Assembly (NCBI RefSeq): GCF_004634425.1
Contig: NZ_SBJL01000003.1
Span: 310,001 to 374,000 of the forward strand
Source of the DNA: Vitreimonas flagellata
GTDB taxonomy: Bacteria > Pseudomonadota > Alphaproteobacteria > Caulobacterales > Aquidulcibacteraceae
Direction of reading: 5' to 3'
Length of the DNA: 64,000 nucleotides
Shown here: positions 9,022 through 13,797 of the stretch, in pieces
Layout of the letters: each line of letters begins with the position of its first letter
How positions within the stretch are numbered: the first letter of the stretch is position 1
Program-made: the position numbers and the translations under genes
The notes under the pieces: generated by a model
Seen by the model: only the letters and a program-made list of their open reading frames with translations
Database searches by the model: none
Told to the model about the DNA's origin: nothing

Positions 9022-9678
9022 TTAGCCTTGGAACGCGCTGATATACACTTCAACGCGACGGTTGCGGGCGCGGCCCGAGTCCGTACCGTTGTCGGCGATC
9101 GGGCGGGTTTCGCCGTAGCCTTGCGCGATCAGACGCTGACGGATCACGCCGCCTTGCATCAGCACCGAAGCGACGTTCATCGCGCGGCGCTCAGAGAGGT
9201 CTTGATTGTAGGCGTCCGAACCCGTCGAGTCCGCATGGCCATACACGTCGACCGTGGTTTGGTTGTAGTCGCGCAGCACGCTGCCGACTTGCTGCAGCGT
9301 TGGCACGAATTGGCTCTTCACCGCGTCACGGTCGTAATCGAATGTAAGGTCAGATGGGAAGTTCAGCAGGATCTGGCTTTGCGACACGCGCGTCACGCCA
9401 ACGCCGGTGCCGGCAAGGCGCTCGCGCAGGTTCTGGTAGGTGCGATCCATATAATGGCCGATGCCGGCGCCCGCGAGCGCGCCGATGCCCGCGCCGATCA
9501 TGGCGTTGCGACGATCATCGCCGCCAGCCAGCGTGCCGGCCGCAGCGCCAGCGATCGCGCCGATGATGGCGCCGGTGCCTGTGTTGTTACGGGTGCGCTC
9601 ACCGGTGACCGGGTCGACGTTGGTGCAACCCACCATGAGCATAACTGCGGCAGCCATGGCTGCGAATTTGCGGATCAT
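9022..9678 (-). CDS. OmpA family lipoprotein with glycine zipper (YiaD-like)
   Basis: The product has 218 residues: signal peptide and lipobox (MLMVGC), a glycine-zipper segment (about 35-75, repeated GAGIGALAGAGIG), and a C-terminal OmpA domain (about 110-218) with YGHADSTGS and the peptidoglycan-binding LSERRAMNV and RNRRVEVYI motifs. It anchors the outer membrane to peptidoglycan. The start has GGAGGG seven bases upstream. It appears to be transcribed alone. Similar proteins are called YiaD or Lpp-like OmpA; I give no symbol. Confidence 0.92.
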   Translation of the reverse strand: MIRKFAAMAAAVMLMVGCTNVDPVTGERTRNNTGTGAIIGAIAGAAAGTLAGGDDRRNAMIGAGIGALAGAGIGHYMDRTYQNLRERLAGTGVGVTRVSQSQILLNFPSDLTFDYDRDAVKSQFVPTLQQVGSVLRDYNQTTVDVYGHADSTGSDAYNQDLSERRAMNVASVLMQGGVIRQRLIAQGYGETRPIADNGTDSGRARNRRVEVYISAFQG

Positions 9679-9778: not shown

Positions 9779-10321
9779 CTAATTGGCCGATCCGGACGTG
9801 CTAAAGCGTTCGAGCCGCCCGAATTGTTCCATCACCACCGTATCTACCAGCGGAGCGATCCGGTCGAGCCCTAAACCGGCGTCTCCCGCTACGCGATAGG
9901 TCATTATGATTTTCGCGCCAGAGGCGTGCGGCGCAATCGTGAAGGTCAAAACGCCGCTAGCCCCAAGTTCTTGGAGCGGGCCGAGCGCGGTATCGAACCG
10001 GAGCGTGCGCACGCCCTCGTGCTCCATCACAAGAACCACGCGGCCGTGCTCGACTGATTGGCCGTCCCAGCGCTCGCACCAGCATCCGCCGGCGCGAAGA
10101 TCGACGCTCATGCGCCGCGCGTCGCCGGAATAGGTGTGCTCGGAATTCCACCAGCGGTTCAGTCGCGACAGCGCCCGCCAAGCTTCCTCCGGACTTGCCG
10201 ACGTTTCGGCTTCAGCGCGGAGAAGAAAGGCGCTTGGGCTGGATGAGGTGACTTCGGCGTGAGCGAGTGGCGACGCTAAGAGCGCGCAAACGAACGTGGC
10301 GGCAAAAGCAAAGAGACGCAT
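9779..10321 (-). CDS. Secreted SRPBCC-fold protein
   Basis: The product has 180 residues with a clear signal peptide ending LAHA. The remainder resembles the START/polyketide-cyclase (SRPBCC) ligand-binding fold: ASPEEAWRALSRLNRWW at the start and GLDRIAPLVDTVVMEQFGRLERF as the long C-terminal helix. Such proteins bind small hydrophobic ligands; here it would act in the periplasm. No catalytic site can be named. It is divergent from the kinase-like gene to the right. Confidence 0.75.
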   Translation of the reverse strand: MRLFAFAATFVCALLASPLAHAEVTSSSPSAFLLRAEAETSASPEEAWRALSRLNRWWNSEHTYSGDARRMSVDLRAGGCWCERWDGQSVEHGRVVLVMEHEGVRTLRFDTALGPLQELGASGVLTFTIAPHASGAKIIMTYRVAGDAGLGLDRIAPLVDTVVMEQFGRLERFSTSGSAN

Positions 10322-10422: not shown

Positions 10423-11796
10423 GTGAATGCCGACGCTCATTCCGAGGCGCGGCCAGATCGGCCGCCGCTCGCTGGCTTAGTTGACCAGCGTACGCGCGCG
10501 CTTTTGCAAGTCGGCCAAGCCCGCGTTGCCAATGCGTGGATGCGGCTTGGCTCGTGTGCGATCGTCGCCATCGTCGCGATGTCGATCCTGGGCAATCTGT
10601 GGCCGATCGCGTGGTGGATCGGGCTCAGCGTCGTCATTTTCTTCGACCGCTCGCTCCACCAGCGTTTGCTGAAAGCGATTGACGCTGGCGAACAGCCGTC
10701 GATGACGTGGCTGGTGGTCTGGACGGCGGCGCAGAGCATCTACGGCAACACGCTCGCCATCATGTTGTGGTTCGCGCCTTATGTGCCGGGTGAATCGCTG
10801 GCGGTGATCTATCTGTGCGGCGGTTTGGCCAACGCGATCGCGACGCTGCGCGCGCATGCGGGGCTCACGCTCGCGGGGGCCGTGCCGACGCTTGGCTTTC
10901 TAATGGGGCTGCCGATCTTCAATTTCTTCGCGAACGGCGCGACCAATACCGCCGATCTGATGCTTGTCGTTGGCGCGCTGTTGTTGCTCGGGTTCGGCGT
11001 CAATCTCTGGAAGAGTTTGCTCGCTTCCGACGCCGCACACGCGCGCGCCGAAGAAGCGGCGATCCGCGAACAACAAGCTGCGGCGGCCGCCGCGCTCGCC
11101 AAAACCGACACGATTCAGCGTATGAACGATGAATTGCGCACGCCGATGATGGCCTTAATTGGCGCAGCTGAACATCTGCATCGCGTCGCCGCAACGCCTT
11201 CCGCGCGCGCACACATTGCGACGCTGGTGCAAGCGGGTGAGGTGTTGAAGCAGGTGCTCGATGATCTGACCGATCTTGATCGCCTTGAGAACGGAAGCCT
11301 TGAGGTCGAGCCAGCGCCGACCTCGGTGCGTGATATCGTGCGCAGCGCTCTAAGCGCGTTTCGCTCTGCCGCAGACGACAAAGGCCTTGAACTCTTCGCC
11401 GACATCAGCGCCGATATGCCAACGAGCATTGAGATGGATGCGCGACGGGTGCGCCAAATCCTCTTCAACCTGCTCGCGAACGCCGTGCGCTATACGCAGC
11501 ATGGCGGTGTGCGCGTGCGGGTGAGCGCGCAAGTCGCGCCATTGCCCGGGCGCGTGCGTCTGAGCTTCGTCGTTGCGGATACAGGGCTCGGCATGAGCCG
11601 CGCGCAATTGTCCGCGATTTTCGGGCGCGAGCGCGTGGCCGGCGCCAGCGACGGGCTTGGGCTTGCGATCTCGCTCAAGCTCGCGCGCGCGATGGGCGGC
11701 CACATCACGGCCAAGTCTGAGCCAGGCGAGGGCTCCGTTTTCACATTCACCTTCGACGCTCCGGTGATCAGCCGCAGCGCAAACGCCGCAGCCTAA
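10423..11796 (+). CDS. Histidine-kinase-like membrane protein with Asp in place of phospho-acceptor His
   Basis: The product has 457 residues. Five or six membrane segments lie between about residues 35 and 200, then a short coiled coil rich in Ala/Glu leads to the kinase core. The dimerisation box reads MNDELRTPM: Asp236 stands where the phosphorylated His of the canonical SHELRTP is expected. The ATPase domain looks intact, with the N box (FNLLANAVRYT), VVADTGLGMS and DGLGLAIS. It therefore may bind ATP but should not autophosphorylate in the normal way, as in DivL, where Tyr replaces His. No response regulator is adjacent. The GTG start at 10423 is a choice that avoids overlap with the divergent gene. 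Confidence 0.85.
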   Translation: MNADAHSEARPDRPPLAGLVDQRTRALLQVGQARVANAWMRLGSCAIVAIVAMSILGNLWPIAWWIGLSVVIFFDRSLHQRLLKAIDAGEQPSMTWLVVWTAAQSIYGNTLAIMLWFAPYVPGESLAVIYLCGGLANAIATLRAHAGLTLAGAVPTLGFLMGLPIFNFFANGATNTADLMLVVGALLLLGFGVNLWKSLLASDAAHARAEEAAIREQQAAAAAALAKTDTIQRMNDELRTPMMALIGAAEHLHRVAATPSARAHIATLVQAGEVLKQVLDDLTDLDRLENGSLEVEPAPTSVRDIVRSALSAFRSAADDKGLELFADISADMPTSIEMDARRVRQILFNLLANAVRYTQHGGVRVRVSAQVAPLPGRVRLSFVVADTGLGMSRAQLSAIFGRERVAGASDGLGLAISLKLARAMGGHITAKSEPGEGSVFTFTFDAPVISRSANAAA

Positions 11797-12167: not shown

Positions 12168-12593
12168 TTACTTTGCGAGAAAAGCGTCGAGCTTGCGAGA
12201 CAGCGGCGCGGCTTGGCGTGTCTCGCATTCCCACACTGTAAGACTAACCCAGCCTCGCGCCTTTAGTGAGGCGAGAGCCGAGGCGTCGCGCGCGCGATTG
12301 CGTGCGATCTTGTTTTGCCAATAGGCAGCATTGTCTTTCGGTTGACGCGCGCCGCGTTTGCAATCGTGGCCGTGCCAGAAACAGCCATGCACGAAGATGA
12401 CTTTGCGCATCGCGCCGAACACGAGATCCGGTTTGCCCGGAAGCGCTGCGCCGTTCAGCCGATAGCGGCGGCCGTAGCCAAGTGCGCGTACGGCGGTCCG
12501 AACAGCAAGCTCAGGCGCGGTGCCGCTCGACTTCACCGCGCGCATGATGGCGGAGCGTTTGGTTTGATCGAAGACGTCGTGACCGCGCGCCAT
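12168..12593 (-). CDS. vsr: Very short patch repair endonuclease Vsr
   Basis: The product has 141 residues, the normal size. Vsr nicks 5' of the T in T:G mismatches that arise when 5-methylcytosine is deaminated. Seen motifs: DVFDQTKRSAIMRAVKS at the start, GKPDLVF with the catalytic Asp, VFVHGCFWHGHDC, and NAAYWQNKIARNRARD. The ATG overlaps the stop of the methyltransferase gene by one base (TAATG), so the two are co-translated. This pairing is well known from E. coli dcm-vsr. The mismatch context should follow the site of the neighbouring methyltransferase, which is unknown. Confidence 0.93.
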   Translation of the reverse strand: MARGHDVFDQTKRSAIMRAVKSSGTAPELAVRTAVRALGYGRRYRLNGAALPGKPDLVFGAMRKVIFVHGCFWHGHDCKRGARQPKDNAAYWQNKIARNRARDASALASLKARGWVSLTVWECETRQAAPLSRKLDAFLAK

Positions 12594-13729
12594 TAGGCGG
12601 TTCGGCGAGTCGCCGCTGCGCCGACGAGCGGACGAAGAAGGTGCTGCGAAAGCCAGCGCACGACGGGTACACACACGGCGTCGCCGATCAGGTGAAGTGC
12701 AGCGGTTTGGCTCGCAGGCAATGGGTATTCGTCCGGAACGCCCATCAAACGTGCGGCTTCACGCGGTGTAAGCAGGCGCGAGCGAATGTTGTCGCCTTCG
12801 ACGAAGAGCAGCAATTGACGGCTCGAACCGCCGGTGGGCGTACGCAGGCAACCGGCGATGCCGTCAAAGCGGGCTTCGGCGCGTTGGACACGTTCGCCGT
12901 GCTCGATGCGGATGCGGCGGAAAACGGCGCCAACTTCGCGTCGGCCGCTTTCGCGCAACGCGTCGACGCGGGCGCGTTGCAGCGGGCTCATCTGAGAAAG
13001 CAGCTTCGCGGTTTGCTCGTCGCTATTCCACGCGACGCCCTCGTCTTCGAGCACATCGGCCAAACGCGTGTTGCGCTTGGGCGGCGTGTCGAGGCGCCAC
13101 CAGACGAAATGCTTGCGGAGAGTGTCCGGCAAGCGGGCGACGACGTTGCGGAGCGCCATCGAATGAAACGGTTCAATTGGGCCGGACGAAATGAGGTGCG
13201 ACGGCGCGGTGCGCGCGGCGATGATGAAGAGGCGCGGCCGCGATTGCGGCGTGAAGAGTGCGGCGTCGATCTCCAGCGCGCCAACGCGATAGCCCAAGCC
13301 ATCGAGCGCGTGGACGAGCGCTGTGAAGTCCGCGCCGCCGTGTGAGCTCAAAAGCCCCGAGACGTTTTCGAGCGCGAGCACCTCGGGCGCGCGCTTCTCG
13401 TGGGCGAGCTTTTCGATCAGGCGATGGAAGCCCCAGAAGGCGCCCGAGCGCGGGGCCGCCAGACCCCGTCGCGCGCCGGCGAGGGAGAGGTCTTGGCAGG
13501 GGAAGCTGGCCCAGGCGAGTGACGCCTGGCCGGGCAGGTCGGCGCTGGCCAGGTTCCAGATGTCGCCCTGGCGCATATCGGCTTCGCCCCAGGCGGTGCG
13601 GTAGGCGCTGGCCTTGGCCGGATCGAAGTCATTGGCGAAAACGCAGGCGAAATCCGGTTCCAAGCCCAGCCGCGCCAGACCGCCACCCGCGAAAAACTCA
13701 TAAAGTGGGGCGCCGGAATCACGCTGCAT
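12593..13729 (-). CDS. DNA (cytosine-5)-methyltransferase
   Basis: The product has 378 residues. It transfers methyl from SAM to C5 of cytosine. Motif I is FFAGGG (residues 12-17), motif IV is FPCQD with catalytic Cys78, motif VI is ALENVSG (Glu121), and motif VIII is SRPRLFII. The C-terminal motifs LTPREAARLMGVPDEY and IGDAVCVPV are present. It is coupled to vsr and no restriction endonuclease gene lies nearby, so it is probably an orphan, Dcm-like enzyme. The recognition site cannot be read from sequence. The start at 13729 puts motif I close to the N-terminus, as is usual. Confidence 0.92.
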   Translation of the reverse strand: MQRDSGAPLYEFFAGGGLARLGLEPDFACVFANDFDPAKASAYRTAWGEADMRQGDIWNLASADLPGQASLAWASFPCQDLSLAGARRGLAAPRSGAFWGFHRLIEKLAHEKRAPEVLALENVSGLLSSHGGADFTALVHALDGLGYRVGALEIDAALFTPQSRPRLFIIAARTAPSHLISSGPIEPFHSMALRNVVARLPDTLRKHFVWWRLDTPPKRNTRLADVLEDEGVAWNSDEQTAKLLSQMSPLQRARVDALRESGRREVGAVFRRIRIEHGERVQRAEARFDGIAGCLRTPTGGSSRQLLLFVEGDNIRSRLLTPREAARLMGVPDEYPLPASQTAALHLIGDAVCVPVVRWLSQHLLRPLVGAAATRRTA

Positions 13730-13797
13730 TGTTTTATGGTACAGGTTCTCGGCGGCTCTGGCTCCCTTGGGGGGCGCCGGCCAAGTGGGGGACGCCC

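Follow-up and report, generated by a model that had tools for sequence, protein, structure and literature searches.

A conserved orphan membrane pseudo-histidine kinase without the acceptor histidine in Vitreimonas flagellata and its genus, probably signalling through a partner protein

Whether a histidine kinase that lacks its phospho-acceptor histidine can still signal, and by what means, is the question raised by a gene of Vitreimonas flagellata at positions 10,423–11,796 of the window (the whole stretch of 64,000 nucleotides analysed here), where the frame at 11,122–11,154 reads MNDELRTPMMA. The open reading frame, on the forward strand, encodes 457 residues from an inferred GTG start at 10,423, with longer in-frame starts present, and is classed as an orphan pseudo-histidine kinase gene from its Pfam HisKA and HATPase_c domains and 19 further orthologues in the genus. 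The DHp domain (residues 231–289; 11,113–11,289) is matched by HisKA with 33.9 bits against a cut-off of 26.9 (E = 3e-8), and the CA domain (residues 297–450; 11,311–11,772), also delimited by AlphaFold2, by HATPase_c with 78.6 bits (E = 6e-22). They are preceded by a predicted six-TM membrane sensor domain (residues 22–200; 10,486–11,022) that belongs to no Pfam family, with AlphaFold2 helices at residues 22–56, 60–87, 95–116, 123–142, 146–170 and 176 to about 200. In the model (mean pLDDT 76.6, pTM 0.45) the six TM helices lead into one continuous helix entering the DHp, followed by the second DHp helix and the CA domain, after which the proteins of the genus end without a C-terminal receiver. 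The best PDB matches found by Foldseek are GacS, RetS, ShkA and DivL.

Asp236 (11,128–11,130) lies opposite the HisKA acceptor histidine in alignments with PDB structures and with the kinases of the same genome, and Pfam agrees, which bears out the original reading of the MNDELRTPM box. Our orthologue search covered 60 genomes of the family, 30 of them of the genus, and recovered the gene in 20 of these 30 (host included) at 56–85% identity, always as an open frame. The acceptor residue is Asp in 17 of the 20, Ala in two (L031, L036) and Ser in one (L025). The outcome that would have pointed to mutation or error, a lone deviating copy among orthologues with His, was looked for, and none of the 20 genus copies carries the phospho-acceptor His of a functional HisKA kinase, which rules out a sequencing error or private mutation at Asp236. 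In the alignment, then, His has been lost across the genus and Asp is not itself conserved; a special role for Asp is contradicted by the Ala and Ser of the genus and by an Arg in a sister genus, and a phospho-Asp mechanism is unlikely because Asp is replaceable among orthologues. The rest of the H box, E237-L-R-T240-P241 (11,131–11,145), is strongly kept, E237, R239, T240 and P241 being invariant in 19 orthologues.

The ATP site is partly preserved. Both Asn of the N box N349-L-L-A-N353 (11,467–11,481) and the DTGxG of the G1 box D386-T-G-L-G390 (11,578–11,592) are invariant, and in 19 orthologues N349, N353, D386 and its following Thr, G388, G390, G411 and G413 do not vary. The G2 box survives as a remnant, G411-L-G413 (11,653–11,661), where GTGLGL has become DGLGL with loss of the Thr, and FGRxR stands in place of the F box FxxF, by comparison with the canonical kinases of the same genome. 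The ATP lid (11,608–11,652; IFGRERVAGASD) is truncated and without an F box, some seven residues shorter than in canonical kinases, both of this genome and of the order, and AlphaFold2 gives pLDDT below 50 at residues 401–411; short lids also occur in the two DivL-like proteins of this genome. Of the features of a functional HisKA kinase, the protein therefore has the N and G1 boxes and lacks the F box, the full lid and a GTGLGL G2 box, so that the earlier description of the N and G boxes as intact stands for N and G1 and fails for G2. From these motifs nucleotide binding by the CA domain appears possible and efficient autokinase activity doubtful, and we infer that the Asp236 protein lacks autokinase activity.

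A profile search with the six-TM domain led to syntenic orthologues in three other genera, each represented by one genome, and these are disabled in different ways. The G023 orthologue, the closest match outside the genus (37% identity), is a hybrid with Arg at the acceptor position and a strong receiver-domain match. The G014 orthologue has His (RHELRTP), with its N, G1 and G2 boxes destroyed and HATPase_c at 21 bits, under the cut-off. In the G025 orthologue the H box is erased, there is no HisKA match, G2 is gone and much of the DHp is lost, with DTGxG retained. All three adjoin a gene for an OmpA-family glycine-zipper lipoprotein, the synteny anchor in all four genera (9,022–9,678, minus strand, in the window), within the same neighbourhood as the window gene (methyltransferase, SRPBCC or fatty-acid oxidation genes). 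Two signatures, E(L/F)F-x-D and GGVR(V/I), are also common to them and the genus proteins, and the former is missing from all 35 canonical relatives of the tree set; synteny and shared signature thus support the orthology of G023 and G014 independently. The absence of His from 20 genus orthologues and the loss of catalytic motifs at the same locus in three genera support the original prediction of a conserved, putatively non-phosphorylating sensor akin to DivL.

The best relatives elsewhere in the order (about 30–36% identity) are mostly hybrid kinases of some 580–630 residues with a canonical His. The nearest canonical relatives in the tree are 6TM-HisKA-CA-receiver hybrids of the order (for example L133, L134 and L136), which match over the sensor and kinase core at about 30–36% identity and retain His, F box, full lid and receiver, whereas the Asp236 protein has none of these. 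In a maximum-likelihood tree, from which G025 was left out, the genus, G023 and G014 group in a single clade (100/100) that falls among the canonical hybrids; the mutual grouping of G023 and G014 (92/80) is unsure because of long branches. Together with the full-length matches, this clade points to common descent with the 6TM hybrid kinase family, and on sequence grounds we take the Asp236 protein to descend from its canonical members. The simplest history is that a canonical 6TM hybrid ceased phosphorylating and then decayed by different routes, with loss of the receiver at least in the genus. Since G014 retains His, either the clade has undergone repeated loss of His or its internal branching order is wrong. 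Two canonical non-hybrid kinases of the same genome (L003, L015) align with the Asp236 protein over its full length, including the membrane domain, and the six-TM domain may be a sensor common to many kinases of the order.

Selection on the gene is strong. Whole-gene dN/dS is 0.09–0.18 in seven pairs (Nei-Gojobori), although these ratios are rough because dS is high, and such purifying selection argues for a functional gene. Pooled by region, dN/dS is 0.159 for TM, 0.058 for DHp and 0.125 for CA, against 0.192, 0.028 and 0.200 in the canonical hybrids of the order. The DHp is therefore the most constrained region of the genus gene, yet about twofold less so than the DHp of active kinases, whose CA domain is at least as relaxed as that of the genus. 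The notion of DHp-specific selection peculiar to the pseudokinase family was dropped, as the DHp is the most constrained region in the canonical relatives too. The protein thus joins a HisKA and CA fold to the absence of the acceptor residue, a combination conserved across species under selection, as is characteristic of a pseudo-histidine kinase.

Because relatives at the same locus are disabled differently yet remain under selection, the most likely way for the protein to signal is through a bound partner. Our preferred explanation, to which we give a probability of roughly 60%, is that it is an orphan membrane pseudo-histidine kinase working independently of phosphate, its DHp acting on a partner kinase, response regulator or receiver. 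A canonical six-TM hybrid ancestor would have lost autophosphorylation through replacement of His by Asp, Ala or Ser and decay of the F box and lid, and, in the genus, the receiver as well, retaining the membrane sensor and the surface of the DHp four-helix bundle. The continuous helix would carry the state of the 6TM domain into the DHp; this in turn would bind a partner histidine kinase and bias its kinase/phosphatase balance, or would dock a response regulator or receiver, after the fashion of DivL, RocA and RetS. Against this explanation, the DHp is somewhat less constrained than in canonical hybrids (0.058 versus 0.028), and the genus alignment shows invariant N and G1 boxes and an invariant general-base Glu237, for which a fully dead kinase would have no use. 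DHp docking may also not be universal in the orthogroup, given that G025 has lost much of the domain.

The gene stands alone, divergent from a gene for an exported SRPBCC-like protein (9,779–10,321, minus strand; a neighbour conserved in the genus and G025), and is followed, in almost all genomes of the genus, by oppositely oriented Vsr mismatch endonuclease and C5-cytosine methyltransferase genes (12,168–13,768), which serve as downstream synteny anchors. These two are retained there throughout the genus, as well as in G023, and resemble a resident Dcm-Vsr pair rather than a mobile element in transit. None of the 56 receiver-domain matches of the genome falls inside the 64-kb window; this agrees with the earlier statement that no response regulator is adjacent, excludes an adjacent or operonic one within the window as partner and, with the solitary position of the gene, marks the protein as an orphan. 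The gene is absent from five of 20 near-complete genus genomes and is therefore dispensable in some members, a further point against the preferred explanation; in G057 and G059 it is cleanly missing, with the SRPBCC and Vsr/methyltransferase genes closed up at the locus. Both the SRPBCC and OmpA genes remain in these two genomes, so that no dependence of either on the kinase is seen and they were rejected as partners. A guess by paralogue similarity gave nothing usable, the closest kinase core in the genome being 36% identical.

The best-surviving alternative, which we nevertheless regard as unlikely, is a dedicated response-regulator phosphatase that has no kinase activity and dephosphorylates its target under signal control via the retained ExxT (E237-L-R-T240). 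It is suggested by the retention of T240, the H+4 residue needed by HisKA phosphatases, which like P241 is invariant in the genus and persists in the orthologues of G023 and G014, and by the finding that His is dispensable for phosphatase activity in CrdS, the same being said of EnvZ (PMC3510030). However, His is needed in PleC, whose H610A variant loses both activities (PMC3510030), the whole motif is lost in the G025 orthologue, and DivL has neither phosphatase nor kinase activity (PMC4211667).

Less likely again is a nucleotide-sensing switch, in which ATP or ADP occupancy of the CA domain would be the signal that sets DHp conformation. The invariance of N349, N353, D386, G388, G390, G411 and G413 in 19 orthologues and the HATPase_c score of 78.6 bits would suit such a switch, but the lid and F box are lost, the ATP site is destroyed in G014 and G2 is lost in G025, and the affinity of DivL for TNP-ATP is low (57 µM; PMC4211667). 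The truncated lid and the ATP-site losses in two other genera make it unlikely that ATP is essential to the shared function. The ATP-bound signalling state first proposed thus fits the invariant nucleotide-binding residues of the genus and does not fit the shortened lid or the loss of much or all of the site in those genera.

That the gene is the remnant of a kinase turning into a pseudogene, without present function, is very improbable: differing motif decay in four genera and the clean absence from G057 and G059 with the neighbours closed up would be expected of it, but no internal stop occurs in any of the 20 genus copies, and both the whole-gene dN/dS of 0.09–0.18 and a CA and TM constraint like that of canonical relatives speak against it. 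A functional aspartyl kinase, with Asp236 phosphorylated in place of His and the phosphate passed on, is scarcely credible, for although Asp predominates and E237 never varies, the Ala of two orthologues is unable to take phosphate, G023 has Arg, and the lid and F box are lost.

Partner binding through the DHp thus remains our preferred reading, and a broader version can be put forward tentatively, at somewhat below even odds: the proteins may form a family-wide six-TM pseudo-histidine kinase orthogroup that occupies a fixed locus and has repeatedly given up autophosphorylation by losing the acceptor, the ATP site or the H box, inability to phosphorylate being the selected state and action on the partner purely conformational. 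Histidine kinases are mostly annotated by domain, with phosphorylation assumed, and at least five of the 41 HisKA matches in this genome lack His (D, D, S, Y, Y); since one genome holds several such proteins, kinase counts overstate phosphorelay inputs. The second Asp case, L016 (G000:C1:941306-942571; GDDLRTP), has an N-terminal protoglobin domain and is adjoined by a weak receiver match (C1:940968); it has three relatives in the family at E<=1e-50, and because both of those whose H box was read (L210, L211) have His, its Asp is not conserved. The Ser case, L008 (G000:C5:25572-26288), is a 707-residue HisKA protein (MSSELRSP).

The Tyr cases are the DivL-like proteins L010 (G000:C5:9599-10321; VSYQLRSP) and L011 (G000:C4:365990-366703; VSYQLRNP), whose frames span 1155 and 832 residues, respectively, L011 matching the DivL structure 4q20 at 1e-58. 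Descriptions of Caulobacter usually give it a single DivL, a protein with a PAS-type sensor part. Like the Asp236 protein, DivL of Caulobacter crescentus is a HisKA/CA pseudokinase of the same order without the acceptor His, and it is a top structure match (4q20); it differs in having Tyr (Tyr550) at the acceptor and no six-TM domain. With Asp in place of Tyr, a six-TM sensor, and two other proteins of the genome carrying the Tyr, the Asp236 protein was rejected as a DivL orthologue.

The sensor of RetS is of a different type from the six-TM domain, and RetS has receivers. Our search of the literature for surveys of His-less kinases found none, only single cases. DivL senses DivK~P, and its Y550H substitution is reported to be harmful (PMC4211667). 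RetS of Pseudomonas aeruginosa, whose kinase region is a top fold match of the Asp236 protein and offers a possible analogy, is a kinase-like protein working by DHp-DHp binding to another kinase, blocking GacS heterodimerically by replacing its DHp-DHp interface (PMC12148439). The pseudokinase ChrS forms heterodimers with its paralogue HrrS and promotes heme tolerance with cross-phosphorylation by HrrS (PMC9491836). RocA of group A Streptococcus is a comparable pseudokinase, with six predicted TM segments, a DHp and a degenerate CA domain, and acts through the kinase CovS (PMC7028121); it differs in coming from a Firmicute and in retaining a dispensable His (H246), as the G014 orthologue retains one. 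The original interpretation was right in outline and too strong on Asp and ATP. Partner-acting dead kinases are thus already known in DivL, RocA and RetS, and the Asp236 protein would be a new example; what is of interest to specialists is the four-way decay, in which one syntenic locus offers, beside canonical hybrids, four states that are each disabled in their own way, a natural series that bears on what a kinase fold does without catalysis.
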